A stretch of 64,000 bases of DNA, from assembly GCF_037198285.1 (NCBI RefSeq), contig NZ_CP147243.1, positions 1,550,001 through 1,614,000 of the forward strand. Reading direction: 5' to 3'. This document shows, piece by piece, positions 8,324 through 20,944 of this stretch. Position numbers and translations under genes: made by a program. Position 1 is the first letter of the stretch. Every line of letters begins with the position of its first letter. This DNA comes from Haladaptatus sp. DJG-WS-42 (lineage in GTDB: Archaea > Halobacteriota > Halobacteria > Halobacteriales > Halococcaceae). The notes beneath the pieces were generated by a model. It was not told the DNA's origin and ran no database searches. It saw only the letters and a program-made list of their open reading frames with translations.

Positions 8324-9262
8324 TCAGGCCGAATGTGAGGCGGCCCGTGCCTCTTCGCGGGCCTGTTCTACGGTCTTGCCTTCCCGCAAGATTGCATCCA
8401 CGAACAGCTCGCCAGCCTTGTACGAAGAACGAACCATCGGCCCGCTGGCACAGTAGAGGAAACCGAGCTCTTCTTCTGCCACCTGTCGCCAGACGTCGAA
8501 TCGGTCTGGGTGGACGAACTCGGTCACATCGAGGTGACGACGCGACGGCTGGAGATACTGGCCGAGGGTGACGATGTCAACGTCCGACTCACGGAGGTCA
8601 GAGAGCGTCTGGTACACCTCGTGGTCGTACTCGCCAACGCCGAGCATGATGCTCGTTTTCGTGTAAATTTCAGACTCGTCTACGACCTGTTCGAGCACCG
8701 AGAGACTCTGGTCGTAGGCCGCCCGTTTGTCCCGGACTGGCCACTGGAGGCGTTCGCACGTCTCGATGTTGTGCGCGATGACGTCCGGTTTTGCGTCGAT
8801 GATTTTTCGCACCAACTCGGGTTCGCCTTGGAAGTCAGGAATCAGGACTTCGACGAGAATGCCCGGGTCGCGGCGCTTGATTTCGCGGATGGTCTCTGCG
8901 AAGTGGCCCGCCCCTTGGTCGGGAAGGTCGTCGCGGTCGACCGAGGTGAGCACGACGTAGTCTAAGCCAATCTCGGCGATTGCCTCTGCCACGTTCGTGG
9001 GTTCGTCTTTGTCGAGCGGTTCCATCCCGCCGGTCTGTACGTCACAGAAGTTACAGCCCCGCGAACAGCGGTCGCCCATCAGCATGAACGTCGCCGTGCC
9101 CGGCCCGTTGCGACCGCTCCAACAGTCACCGAGATTCGGACAACTGGCCTCCTCGCACACGGTGTGGAGGTTGTGCTCGCGCAGGGTTTGCTTGATTTTG
9201 GTAAACTGCTGGCCGGATGGTGGACGCATCTTCAGCCAGTCAGGCTTCCGCGAGCGACTCAT
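8324..9262 (-). CDS. lipA: Lipoyl synthase
   Basis: Radical-SAM enzyme inserting two sulfurs into protein-bound octanoyl groups to make lipoate, needed by the adjacent 2-oxoacid dehydrogenase E2. The auxiliary cluster motif CEEASCPNLGDC (C-x4-C-x5-C) is near residues 36-47, and the radical-SAM CSRGCNFC (C-x3-C-x2-C) near 66-73. The length of 312 aa is typical. The ATG at 9262 is preferred over 9268 (ATG-CTA-ATG); a TTTTTG element at 9288-9294 is centred about 27-29 nt upstream. It sits about 260 bp downstream of the operon promoter, on the same strand but with its own promoter. Confidence 0.95.
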   Translation of the reverse strand: MSRSRKPDWLKMRPPSGQQFTKIKQTLREHNLHTVCEEASCPNLGDCWSGRNGPGTATFMLMGDRCSRGCNFCDVQTGGMEPLDKDEPTNVAEAIAEIGLDYVVLTSVDRDDLPDQGAGHFAETIREIKRRDPGILVEVLIPDFQGEPELVRKIIDAKPDVIAHNIETCERLQWPVRDKRAAYDQSLSVLEQVVDESEIYTKTSIMLGVGEYDHEVYQTLSDLRESDVDIVTLGQYLQPSRRHLDVTEFVHPDRFDVWRQVAEEELGFLYCASGPMVRSSYKAGELFVDAILREGKTVEQAREEARAASHSA

Positions 9263-17410: not shown

Positions 17411-17508
17411 GTAACGTCAATAATTTCCGGTAATTGTCGGTGTGAACCGGTATGCGTCACGGACATCTCGGAATGCGTTCTGACTCATGTGGGGTGTGTC
17501 CGGAACGC

Positions 17509-17514
17509 TTTTTA
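17509..17514 (+). promoter_or_regulatory. TATA-like box of pheST leader
   Basis: TTTTTA centred at 17511-17512 predicts transcription from about 17538-17540, exactly the A of the leader-ORF ATG at 17539. No comparable TATA element lies about 27 nt before the pheS ATG, so pheST transcription appears to depend on reading through the leader. Confidence 0.65.
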
Positions 17515-17538
17515 GCGAATCCGCTCGTATCACCGGAT

Positions 17539-17616
17539 ATGGCACCCGAACCCACGCCAGTGTTGACCGGCGACGACTCTCGTTTGACCCCCGGGTTCGG
17601 CTTTTTTCGGTTCTGA
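17539..17616 (+). CDS. Candidate Phe-rich leader peptide (25 aa)
   Basis: A short ORF not previously listed. It has 25 codons plus TGA and ends in PGFGFFRF, so four of the last six residues are Phe (TTC, TTT, TTT, TTC). It begins exactly where the upstream TATA box predicts transcription to start, as haloarchaeal leaderless genes do. The downstream gene encodes phenylalanyl-tRNA synthetase, so Phe-codon stalling is a logical sensor, like the bacterial pheM leader peptide. The ORF overlaps mutually exclusive stems and a T-run. The coding potential is inferred from position and composition; there is no protein evidence. Confidence 0.6.
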   Translation: MAPEPTPVLTGDDSRLTPGFGFFRF

Positions 17617-17680
17617 ATAGCGCGGCGGTGGAATCCGGCTTTCGGGCCAGAGGAAACCGACGTGAGCGTATCCGGAACCG
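17546..17680 (+). promoter_or_regulatory. Candidate pheST attenuator stem-loops
   Basis: CCGAACCC (17546-17553) can pair perfectly with GGGTTCGG (17593-17600). TTTTTT follows at 17602-17607, resembling an intrinsic terminator. CGGTTCTG (17608-17615) can instead pair with CGGAACCG (17673-17680; one G-U). The GAACC and GGTTC cores occur twice each, so pairings are mutually exclusive. The Phe codons lie on the 3' arm, the T-run and the second stem, where a stalled ribosome would change folding. Confidence 0.55.
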
Positions 17681-17720
17681 CTAACTGACTTGCTCGCAGT
17701 GTACGCGACAACACCAAATA

Positions 17721-19226
17721 ATGAAACTACCCGAACCACAGGTCGCGGTCTTAGAGGCCGCGTCCGCCACAGACGCACAGACATTCTCCCGACTGGCGGA
17801 GGCCACCGACCTCCCCGCAGAGACGGTCGCTGGAGCCGCCTTCGCGCTCGAAGCCGAGGGCCTCGTCACCGTTTCTGAGGAGACTGCAGAGACCGTCACC
17901 GTCACCGACGAAGGATTCGACTATGCCGAGGACGGCCTTCCCGAAGTCCGCCTCTACAATGCGGCACTCGAACAGGGTGCGGCCGAGGACGCCGTCGAAA
18001 TGGGCCGCATCATCGGCGCATCCGGCCTCGGCGGCCCACAAGTCAACATCGCGCTCTCGAATTTCGCGCGCAAAGGCTACGGCTCGATTGACAGCGGCAA
18101 GGTATCCGTCAATGCAGACGCCGACCCTGAAGCAGACGAAGAAGCCAACGCGCTCGCCGCGCTCGTCGCGGGCGATTCCATCGAAGATAGCGACGTTCTC
18201 TCTCAGCTCTCTCGTCGCGACCTCGTCGACGTATCTGAATCGGCCATCCGCTCGGTGCGCCTCACCGACGCGGGTGTCGATGCCCTCATGGAGGGCGTCT
18301 CCGTGGCAGAAACCGTTGGCCGACTCACCACCGAGATGCTCACCTCCGGCGACTGGGAAGACGTCGAGTTCGCCGAGTACAACGTCGAAGCCGACGCAGA
18401 GCAGTATCTCGGCGGCAAAGAGCACATCCTCCGCCAGACGGCAAACCGCGTCAAAGACGTGCTCGTCGGCATGGGCTTCCAAGAGATGGAAGGCCCACAC
18501 GCAGACAGCGAGTTCTGGATTAACGACTGTCTGTTCATGCCCCAAGACCACCCGGCGCGCACCCACTGGGACCAGTTCGCCCTCGACGTGCCGCCGATGG
18601 AATCTCTCCCCGAAGGCCTCCTTGAGCGAGTGCACAACGCCCATCTCTACGGGGCAGGCGACGACGGCGAGGGCTACCACTCGCCGTGGACCGAGGACGT
18701 AGCCCGCGCAATCGACCTCCGCGGCCACACCACCTCGCTCTCAATGCGGTATCTCTCCGGCCACGAGGTCGGGGAACTCGAAAAGCCATCCCGCCATTTC
18801 TCCGTCGAAAAGGTGTACCGCAACGACACGCTCGACCCGACCCACCTGCTCGAATTCTACCAAATCGAGGGCTGGGTCATGGCCGACGACCTCTCGGTGC
18901 GCGACCTGATGGGGACGTTCACCGAGTTCTACGAGCAGTTCGGCATCACCGACTTGGAGTTCAAACCCCACTACAACCCGTACACCGAACCGAGCTTCGA
19001 GCTGTTCGGTCGCCACCCAGAGACGGGCGAAATCATCGAGATTGGGAACAGTGGCATCTTCCGCCGCGAAGTGCTCGACCCCCTCGGCGTCGAGTGCGAC
19101 GTGATGGCGTGGGGACTTGCGCTTGAACGGTTGCTCATGTTGATGCACGGCTTCGAAGACATCCGCGACGTACACGGCACGCTGTGTGACCTTGACCTGC
19201 TGCGGAACGTGGAGGTAGTCTACTAA
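17721..19226 (+). CDS. pheS: Phenylalanyl-tRNA synthetase alpha subunit
   Basis: Class II catalytic subunit (501 aa) charging tRNA-Phe with PheT. N-terminal winged-helix-like domains fill about residues 1-200. The catalytic core begins around 245 (VKDVLVGMGFQEMEGP), motif 2 lies in the central part (HFSVEKVYRND) and motif 3 is near the C-terminus (GLALERLLMLMHG). The ATG at 17721 lies about 104 nt after the leader-peptide stop and has neither an SD nor a nearby TATA box. Its last base overlaps the pheT ATG (TAATG). Confidence 0.96.
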   Translation: MKLPEPQVAVLEAASATDAQTFSRLAEATDLPAETVAGAAFALEAEGLVTVSEETAETVTVTDEGFDYAEDGLPEVRLYNAALEQGAAEDAVEMGRIIGASGLGGPQVNIALSNFARKGYGSIDSGKVSVNADADPEADEEANALAALVAGDSIEDSDVLSQLSRRDLVDVSESAIRSVRLTDAGVDALMEGVSVAETVGRLTTEMLTSGDWEDVEFAEYNVEADAEQYLGGKEHILRQTANRVKDVLVGMGFQEMEGPHADSEFWINDCLFMPQDHPARTHWDQFALDVPPMESLPEGLLERVHNAHLYGAGDDGEGYHSPWTEDVARAIDLRGHTTSLSMRYLSGHEVGELEKPSRHFSVEKVYRNDTLDPTHLLEFYQIEGWVMADDLSVRDLMGTFTEFYEQFGITDLEFKPHYNPYTEPSFELFGRHPETGEIIEIGNSGIFRREVLDPLGVECDVMAWGLALERLLMLMHGFEDIRDVHGTLCDLDLLRNVEVVY

Positions 19227-20944
19227 TGCCCGTTGTTGACGTTGACCCAGACGAACTGCGCCGCCTGACCGGCCACGACGAAAAGAGCGACGACGAGTTG
19301 AAAGATGACCTGTTCGGCCTCGGCCTCGAATTCGAGGGCGAAACCGACGACGGCGAGTTCCAACTGGAGTTCGCCCCAGACCGGCTTGACCGGCTCTCGG
19401 TCGAGGGTGTCGCCCGGTCGCTTCGCTACCAGTATGGCGACGACCGCGGCGTCTACATCCCGCGGACGAACGACGCGGACTGGTCGATTGTCGTCGACGC
19501 GTCTGTCCCGGAAGAACGCCCCTACGTGACGGGGGCAATCGTCCGCGGCGTGAACCTCTCAGACGAGGGGCTCGAATCGCTCATCCAGTTACAGGAAAAA
19601 CTCCACGCGACGATGGGGCGCAAACGCGCCAAGGGCGCAATCGGCGTCCACGACCTGACCATGCTGAAGGGCGCGAAAGCGACCGACGAGGCGGGTGAGC
19701 AGTGCATCACGTACAAGGGTGTCGACCCCGACGGCGTCACCTTCGTTGCACTCGATTCAGACCAAGAACTCACCCCGCGCGAAGTGCTCACGGAACACGA
19801 GACGGGCACAAAGTACGCAGACTTGGTGGAGGAGTTAGACCGGTATCCCGCCATCTACGACGACATTGGCCTGTTCTCGTTCCCGCCAGTCATCAACGGC
19901 CGTCGCACCGAGGTTTCGACGGACTCGCGCGACCTATTCATCGAACTCACGGGCACCGACCAGTGGACAATCGACCGGATGTGCAACATCATCTGCTACG
20001 CGCTTGACGCCCGCGGTGGCACTGTCGAACAGGTCACCGTCGAGTACCCAGACCACGAACTCACGCGCCCCGACTTCGAAGTGGAGACGAAAACTGTCAC
20101 CCACGAGCGCGTCGAGAAACTGCTCGGCCTCGACTTCGAGGAAAAAGACATCGTGGACTTGCTCGAACGCGCCGGACTCGACGCCGAAGTCGAGACGATC
20201 GGCGACGACGAACTCGCCTACGAGGTATCCGTTCCACCGTACCGCGTGGACGTGCTCCACCCGCTCGACATCGTCGACGACATCGGGCGGGCCTACGGTT
20301 TCAACGACCTTGAACCAAAGTACCCGGACGTGTCGACAGTTGGCGGCCTCCACGAGCGCTCTCGGCTCGAAACCGCCGCCCGCGACACGCTCGTCGGGCT
20401 TGGCTTCCAGGACCTGCTCAACTTCCACATGACGAGCGAAGTCGAGAACTTCGAGCGAATGGGCATCGCGCCCGAAGACGACGGTCTTGGTGCGGAGACG
20501 CCCGCGACTATCACCGAACCGTACAGCGAGGAGTACACCATGCTCCGGACGTGGAATCTCCCGTCGCTCATGATGGTCTTAGAGAACAACACCCACCGGG
20601 CGTACCCACAGAACTTGGCGGAAATCGGCTTCGTCGCCCACCGCGACGATTCGCTCAACACGCGGGTCGCAGAAGCTCGCCACGTCGCCGCCGTTCTCGC
20701 CGGCAACGACGTGTCCTACGAGGACGCGAAAGCCCGCCTGCAGGCGCTCTGTCGTGCCTTCGACGTGGAACTCGAAACTCCGGCCACAGCGCACCCGTCA
20801 TTCATCGCCGGGCGCACCGCCGCAGTCGTCGTAGCGGGCGAGGAAGCCGGTGTCATCGGCGAACTGCATCCGAAAGTGCTCGTCGAACACGGTCTCGAAC
20901 TGCCGGTCGTTGGCTTCGAATTCGACCTCTCAGCACTGCAGTAA
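19226..20944 (+). CDS. pheT: Phenylalanyl-tRNA synthetase beta subunit
   Basis: A 572-aa partner of PheS, of archaeal/eukaryal type without the bacterial anticodon-binding extension. It includes the B3/B4 editing region (about 90-270, with INGRRTEVSTDSRDLFIELTG), the B5 domain (VSVPPYRVDVLHPLDIVDDIGRA region near 330-360) and a catalytic-like domain at the end. The subunit hydrolyses misacylated Tyr-tRNA-Phe and contributes to tRNA binding. It overlaps pheS by one base, so the subunits should be produced stoichiometrically. Confidence 0.96.
   Translation: MPVVDVDPDELRRLTGHDEKSDDELKDDLFGLGLEFEGETDDGEFQLEFAPDRLDRLSVEGVARSLRYQYGDDRGVYIPRTNDADWSIVVDASVPEERPYVTGAIVRGVNLSDEGLESLIQLQEKLHATMGRKRAKGAIGVHDLTMLKGAKATDEAGEQCITYKGVDPDGVTFVALDSDQELTPREVLTEHETGTKYADLVEELDRYPAIYDDIGLFSFPPVINGRRTEVSTDSRDLFIELTGTDQWTIDRMCNIICYALDARGGTVEQVTVEYPDHELTRPDFEVETKTVTHERVEKLLGLDFEEKDIVDLLERAGLDAEVETIGDDELAYEVSVPPYRVDVLHPLDIVDDIGRAYGFNDLEPKYPDVSTVGGLHERSRLETAARDTLVGLGFQDLLNFHMTSEVENFERMGIAPEDDGLGAETPATITEPYSEEYTMLRTWNLPSLMMVLENNTHRAYPQNLAEIGFVAHRDDSLNTRVAEARHVAAVLAGNDVSYEDAKARLQALCRAFDVELETPATAHPSFIAGRTAAVVVAGEEAGVIGELHPKVLVEHGLELPVVGFEFDLSALQ

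Follow-up and report, generated by a model that had tools for sequence, protein, structure and literature searches.

The window, which is the whole 64,000-nt stretch of Haladaptatus sp. DJG-WS-42 DNA analysed here, carries on its plus strand the genes for both subunits of phenylalanine--tRNA ligase: pheS for the alpha subunit at 17721-19226 (NCBIfam NF003210, 575.8 bits) and pheT for the archaeal type of beta subunit at 19226-20944 (NCBIfam TIGR00471, 462.6 bits). Ahead of them, on the same strand, lies a leader ORF of 25 codons and a stop, MAPEPTPVLTGDDSRLTPGFGFFRF (17539-17616), supported by the alignment of relatives and by frame-keeping indels. Four of its last six residues are Phe, and the corresponding codons (at 17596, 17602, 17605 and 17611, spanning 17596-17613), regarded from the leader alignment as putative sensor codons, form the T-richest part of the leader RNA. 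The ORF had been proposed, in a sequence-only reading of the same DNA, as a Phe-codon leader peptide ahead of archaeal pheST, and on re-checking all of its coordinates proved correct. When the intergenic region was shuffled 20000 times with its dinucleotides preserved, none of the shuffles contained an ORF of 20-40 codons in which four of the last six residues are Phe.

Conservation was assessed at 80 named haloarchaeal pheS loci, which together with the window provide 74 leader-bearing sequences. A short ORF with a Phe-rich end precedes pheS in 73 of the 80, far above chance, with the peptide consensus M-A-(P/S)-E-(S/P) ... G-F-G-F-F-F-A-R followed by the stop. Under a fixed definition (an ORF that opens with ATG, has 20-40 codons and carries three or more Phe among its last 9 residues) a leader is present in 67/81 upstream regions versus 1/3240 shuffles, and in 0/780 other 330-nt blocks from the same loci. 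The leader is dispensable in some lineages, because 7/80 loci show none that is complete: L069 has no upstream sequence, L072 has lost the start and retains the Phe end together with the helix H2 described below, L006 carries a degenerate copy farther upstream of pheS, and in L002, L029, L032 and L080 the leader is absent.

The covariance model R2, which covers both the leader and H2 and was built from sequences that include the window, gave matches in 67/99 Halobacteriales genomes, nearly always in single copy, and in 59/80 good Halobacteriales genomes and 32/43 genera, all of these being lower bounds set by strict filters. No comparable ORF was found before pheS in 25 genomes from other families of the phylum, where a few incidental matches either lie far upstream or lack the Phe end. 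This points to an element restricted to the haloarchaeal lineage. A weak R2 match at 8424-8529 on the minus strand of the window (E 0.023) is probably due to chance. Locus L036, on a contig labelled Candidatus Pacearchaeota MAG, has a pheS of haloarchaeal type, the leader of which (MAAESRVHAG...GFGFFFAR) is typical; the contig is probably mis-binned. Natrinema leaders comprise 48 codons in L037 and L049 as against 31 in L039, with in-frame growth via a repeated segment.

Covarying helices and translation of the leader

The helix H1 pairs nt 8-16 of the ORF with the Gly-Phe-Gly codons. In the window its 5' arm is CCGAACCC (17546-17553, plus strand, codons 3-5) and its 3' arm GGGTTCGG (17593-17600, plus strand), a pairing that the sequence-only reading had located correctly and that covaries in relatives. 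Both the short ORF with its Phe-rich end and a covarying stem, which that reading had proposed to look for in related upstream regions, are conserved there. Across 36 sequences 98.5% of cells are paired, and 4/9 pairs have changed on both sides. For example, CCGAATCCC:GGGATTCGG in leaders with MAPES and GFGF is replaced by TCGAATCCCG:CGGGATTCGA in leaders with MALES and GFDF, while a further covariant, CTCGAACGCG:CGCGTTCGAG, accompanies MALER and AFEP. Because both arms covary together with amino-acid changes on both sides, this pattern argues that at H1 it is the RNA, rather than the peptide, which is under selection.

The alignments also predict a second covarying helix, H2, which was absent from the sequence-only account. 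It is positioned 3' of the leader stop at 17623-17662 (plus strand) and consists of an outer stem, an internal loop (YGGAN at 17629-17633 and xGAAA at 17652-17656) and an inner hairpin. Across 48 sequences 90.6% of cells are paired and 9/10 pairs have changed on both sides. Only 0-1/500 shuffles score as high for H2, and 0/500 for H1 and likewise for both helices jointly; since the counts for H1 and H2 include related sequences, these shuffle frequencies are not strict probabilities, and slid controls agree with them. The internal loop, YGGAN/CGAAA, is nearly invariant inside the covarying stems at the loci of alignment A1, and in the window itself a few pairs of H2 are broken. The last Phe codon mostly lies 16-22 nt 5' of the GGA in the H2 loop. 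An Rfam search gave no relative at gathering score, with far sub-threshold matches only. A T-box-like reading of the UGGA in H2 was rejected, as no Rfam T-box match was obtained at gathering score, and searches of L034 and of the window leader gave none at E<=1 either. A model of H2 alone (R1) contains too little information for genome searches and yields mostly chance matches.

The distance between the two arms of H1, measured on DNA with the frame ignored, ranges from 38 to 113 nt over about ten different values and is the same modulo 3 in 57/59 distinct sequences, whereas in non-coding controls from the same loci (the length of H2 and the stop-to-pheS spacer) all three frames are represented. 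Because indels between the H1 arms keep the frame and the non-coding distances do not, the leader ORF is, on this comparative evidence, translated. The only conserved parts of the peptide are the codons forming H1 and the Phe cluster. Its middle is free in both sequence and length, and the peptide itself is therefore unlikely to be the product that matters.

Predicted promoters and transcript start

The predicted promoter of the leader, P1, combines a BRE with a TATA-like element, GAACGCTTTTTA (17503-17514, plus strand), with its centre some 27 nt ahead of the leader ATG, and would give rise to a leaderless transcript. The sequence-only reading had noted TTTTTA at 17509-17514, centred 27 nt ahead of the ATG, and had suggested a leaderless leader peptide; the position is confirmed, and the conserved BRE/TATA spacing in relatives supports the suggestion. 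In the 74 aligned leaders A at -34/-33 is conserved at 93-97% and T at -29 to -26 at 85-99% (relative to the leader ATG), while the centre of the element falls 27-28 nt 5' of the leader ATG across haloarchaeal loci. This conservation is as expected for the BRE and TATA box of a leaderless haloarchaeal transcript.

In Haloferax volcanii, dRNA-seq places a 26-aa uORF inside a 5'-UTR of 150-250 nt ahead of pheS, for which no further TSS is listed (Babski et al., 2016; PMC4983044). It forms row 13 of Table 2 in that study, whose section on uORFs reports lengths, pI and masses and makes no mention of Phe or Trp codons, conservation, stems or regulation. The leaders of L004, L009, L010 and L015 are of 26 aa and 2.8 kDa and begin 212 nt before pheS; judging from relatives, the Hfx. 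volcanii uORF is very probably the same element as the present leader. The leaderless uORFs in long 5'-UTRs described there have a TATA box ~27 nt before the uORF ATG, a length of 15-31 aa and a 5'-UTR of 150-250 nt, and the window leader fits this description by its TATA spacing, its 25 aa and an ATG 182 nt before pheS, at which the transcript is predicted to start. A transcription start just upstream of pheS, named in the sequence-only reading as an observation that would speak against it, does not appear in Hfx. volcanii, where the published transcript starts far upstream (PMC4983044).

Closer to the gene lies a conserved element around GGAACCGCTAACTGAC (17671-17690, plus strand), a candidate second promoter (P2) composed of a BRE and CTAAC. 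In the window its BRE/TATA-like core, GGAACCGCTAAC, occupies 17674-17685 with the TAAC centred 37 nt before pheS; in relatives the centre is mostly found 25-36 nt before the pheS ATG. The earlier statement that there is no TATA-like box 27 nt before pheS is literally true, but leaves out this conserved BRE/TATA-like element. At least 10/12 core bases are matched in 64/74 leader-bearing loci, and the element is retained in L002, L029, L032 and L080, which lack the leader. Both its length and its conservation exceed those of an ordinary TATA box. Because it contains a BRE-like GGAAC as well as CTAAC, it may well be a second promoter, and as such could allow pheS transcription without the leader.

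Trp and Val leaders

Cognate-codon ORFs were also found before genes for two other synthetases. A second-type TrpRS is present in 63/196 Halobacteriales genomes, and a Trp-x-Trp leader ORF precedes it in 30/37 loci (among L082, L084, L087 and L146-L175). The stem of this leader covaries, begins at nt 5-8 and closes over the Trp codons, a few of the script-picked stems being doubtful. In Hfx. volcanii a 23-aa uORF lies before the tryptophan--tRNA ligase HVO_A0127 (row 12 of Table 2 in Babski et al., 2016; PMC4983044). HVO_A0127 is probably a second-type TrpRS, and the uORF is probably the Trp leader found here. The chromosomal trpS in the window lies directly behind another gene and has no Trp leader. 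In 24/30 haloarchaeal loci (L225-L254) valS is preceded by a short ORF, 6-16 codons long, in which two successive GTA codons (Val-Val) are mostly followed by CGN, and many of these ORFs have a TATA box spaced as for a leaderless transcript; in the present genome the Val-Val leader is represented by loci L181 and L225. Screens of other synthetases by four Pfam families in three genomes of the genus gave no cognate leader except that of ValRS.

From their sequences, the Phe, Trp and Val leaders look like a class. A wider claim, judged about as likely as not, is that haloarchaea generally sense amino acids through leaderless cognate-codon micro-ORFs before synthetase genes. Such a system would resemble bacterial attenuation, but in place of an intrinsic terminator it would use a hairpin at the 5' end together with an output step of archaeal kind, FttA/aCPSF1 or another.

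Probable sensing of charged tRNA-Phe and its possible output

The pheS leader probably controls pheST as a sensor of charged tRNA-Phe that is read by the ribosome, an interpretation strengthened most by the match between leader amino acid and downstream enzyme in three cases (Phe, Trp and Val). In the sequence-only reading this control took the form of classical attenuation, with H1 and the T-run as an intrinsic terminator competing with a second stem, which now appears quite unlikely. In this genus the T-run does reach 6 nt (TTTTTT at 17602-17607 in the window, coordinates confirmed, within the Phe codons), and the second stem, CGGTTCTG (17608-17615) with CGGAACCG (17673-17680), is present in the window as described and forms part of the minimum-energy fold. 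Runs of at least 5 T in the Phe cluster are slightly more frequent than expected from leader codon usage (40/74 versus about 30, P about 0.01), which points to a weak preference at most. But 34/74 leaders have no run of 5 T, and between the stop and pheS the T-runs of the 74 sequences reach no more than 1-3 nt, so that no intrinsic terminator was found between the control codons and pheS. Termination at the Phe codons would also precede their sensing by the ribosome. The second stem is confined to this genus, where it occurs in three genomes without covariation, and CGGAACCG is part of the pheS-proximal element (T)CGGAACCGCTAACTGAC, conserved in most loci. The proposed mutual exclusion of GAACC and GGTTC pairings fails in the Natrialbaceae, whose leader arm reads GGATTC while the pheS-proximal element is still GGAACC, with no compensation. 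A non-exhaustive search of the relatives' alignments found no conserved mutually exclusive antiterminator pairing, and the competing stem does not covary with the H1 arm. The window leader folds no better than shuffles (free-energy z-score 0.01, a value that is itself uninformative). The use of TTT in the Phe cluster (32% versus 4.5% in pheS) was considered as a sign of selection for a T-run and set aside, as most of the excess vanishes once the leader's other codons are seen to be equally T-ending (30%). The T-richest 9-nt segment of the leader falls in the Phe codons in 74/74 sequences, and the U-rich stretch may be a mere by-product of these codons.

The same sensor could instead have a translational or mRNA-stability output, in which stalling alters the folding of the leader and hence either the access of ribosomes to pheS or the lifetime of the mRNA, while transcription always reads through. 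Such an output would suit a spacer without terminator and a well-conserved RNA structure, H2, between leader and pheS, but no conserved pairing that hides the pheS start was seen and in most loci the 3' end of H2 lies tens of nt or more before pheS; we consider it somewhat unlikely. Appreciably less plausible is transcription of pheST mainly from P2, the leader then being a separate short RNA or small-protein gene with no role in pheST. The BRE/TATA-like element with its TAAC is indeed conserved, at loci lacking the leader included, yet Hfx. volcanii dRNA-seq shows no additional TSS at pheS (PMC4983044), the middle of the peptide is unconserved in sequence and length, and the leader amino acid is that of the downstream synthetase in three separate cases. 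Autoregulation, with PheRS or another protein binding H2 and the Phe codons being incidental, would accommodate the nearly invariant internal loop, but it leaves both the frame-keeping Phe cluster and the Trp and Val leaders unexplained, no Rfam relative was found at gathering score, and the idea seems very improbable.

Given a sensor of charged tRNA-Phe, the likeliest output, put forward tentatively, is premature transcription termination dependent on the archaeal factor FttA/aCPSF1. According to PMC11616081, FttA has a preference for U-rich RNA located about 30-36 nt behind the RNA end, and its steric exclusion by the ribosome is proposed. On this ground, and since U-richness within each leader peaks at the Phe codons, this output is preferred. 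From P1, transcription would begin with the A of the leader ATG, the exact start in this genome being a prediction, and a ribosome would load at the very 5' end of the leaderless transcript. When charged tRNA-Phe is plentiful, the ribosome would pass and leave and H1 would close a few nt after the start codon. The spacer and the U-rich codons for Phe would then be uncovered, and the transcript open to premature ending by FttA/aCPSF1. When it is scarce, the ribosome would stall on the Phe codons, about 15-20 nt before H2, covering the 3' arm of H1 and the U-rich stretch; the factor would be kept off by the following ribosome and pheST expression would rise. More speculatively, H2 could be a pause or protein site by which the ribosome stays synchronised with RNA polymerase.

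In bacteria, the control of amino-acid genes by leader peptides is textbook knowledge, and in E. coli pheST is subject to ribosome-mediated transcription attenuation through the pheM leader peptide. For Archaea, no leader-peptide attenuator was found described in the open-access literature, subscription papers being mostly outside this scope, and the remark of the sequence-only reading that none is described for archaeal PheRS stands within the same literature. Archaeal transcription-translation coupling and the Rho-like factor FttA had made such a case conceivable. FttA/aCPSF1-dependent termination resembles the present proposal in the U-rich RNA within the factor's reach and in the proposed exclusion of FttA by translation; it differs in that the excerpted text of PMC11616081 describes no leader-peptide switch, the link being made here. 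Position before pheS, length of 26 aa and the lack of an extra TSS are the points of likeness to the Hfx. volcanii uORF (row 13; PMC4983044). As two of the three synthetase leaders are already listed as uORFs in this genetically tractable species, the question is directly testable. A true sensor would offer a natural reporter for transcription-translation coupling in archaea, and a general sensing system, if true, would represent a kind of ribosome-mediated attenuation native to Archaea.

With bacterial T-box leaders the haloarchaeal element shares its place in the 5' leader of an aaRS gene and a predicted response to tRNA charging, but it would sense through an ORF and has no Rfam T-box match. 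The resemblance to the E. coli pheST leader lies in a short ORF with several Phe codons ahead of pheST and in stems that overlap the control region, and a short translated ORF rich in cognate codons is common to bacterial attenuators of the pheST/trp type. Unlike the E. coli leader, the haloarchaeal one has a predicted leaderless start, has no Shine-Dalgarno, is read by an archaeal polymerase, and is accompanied by the extra conserved H2 and a possible second promoter. The intrinsic terminator and the conserved antiterminator pairing of the bacterial type were both looked for and neither was found. There is good reason to think that the haloarchaeal leader works like bacterial leader-peptide control, while doing so without two of its defining features.
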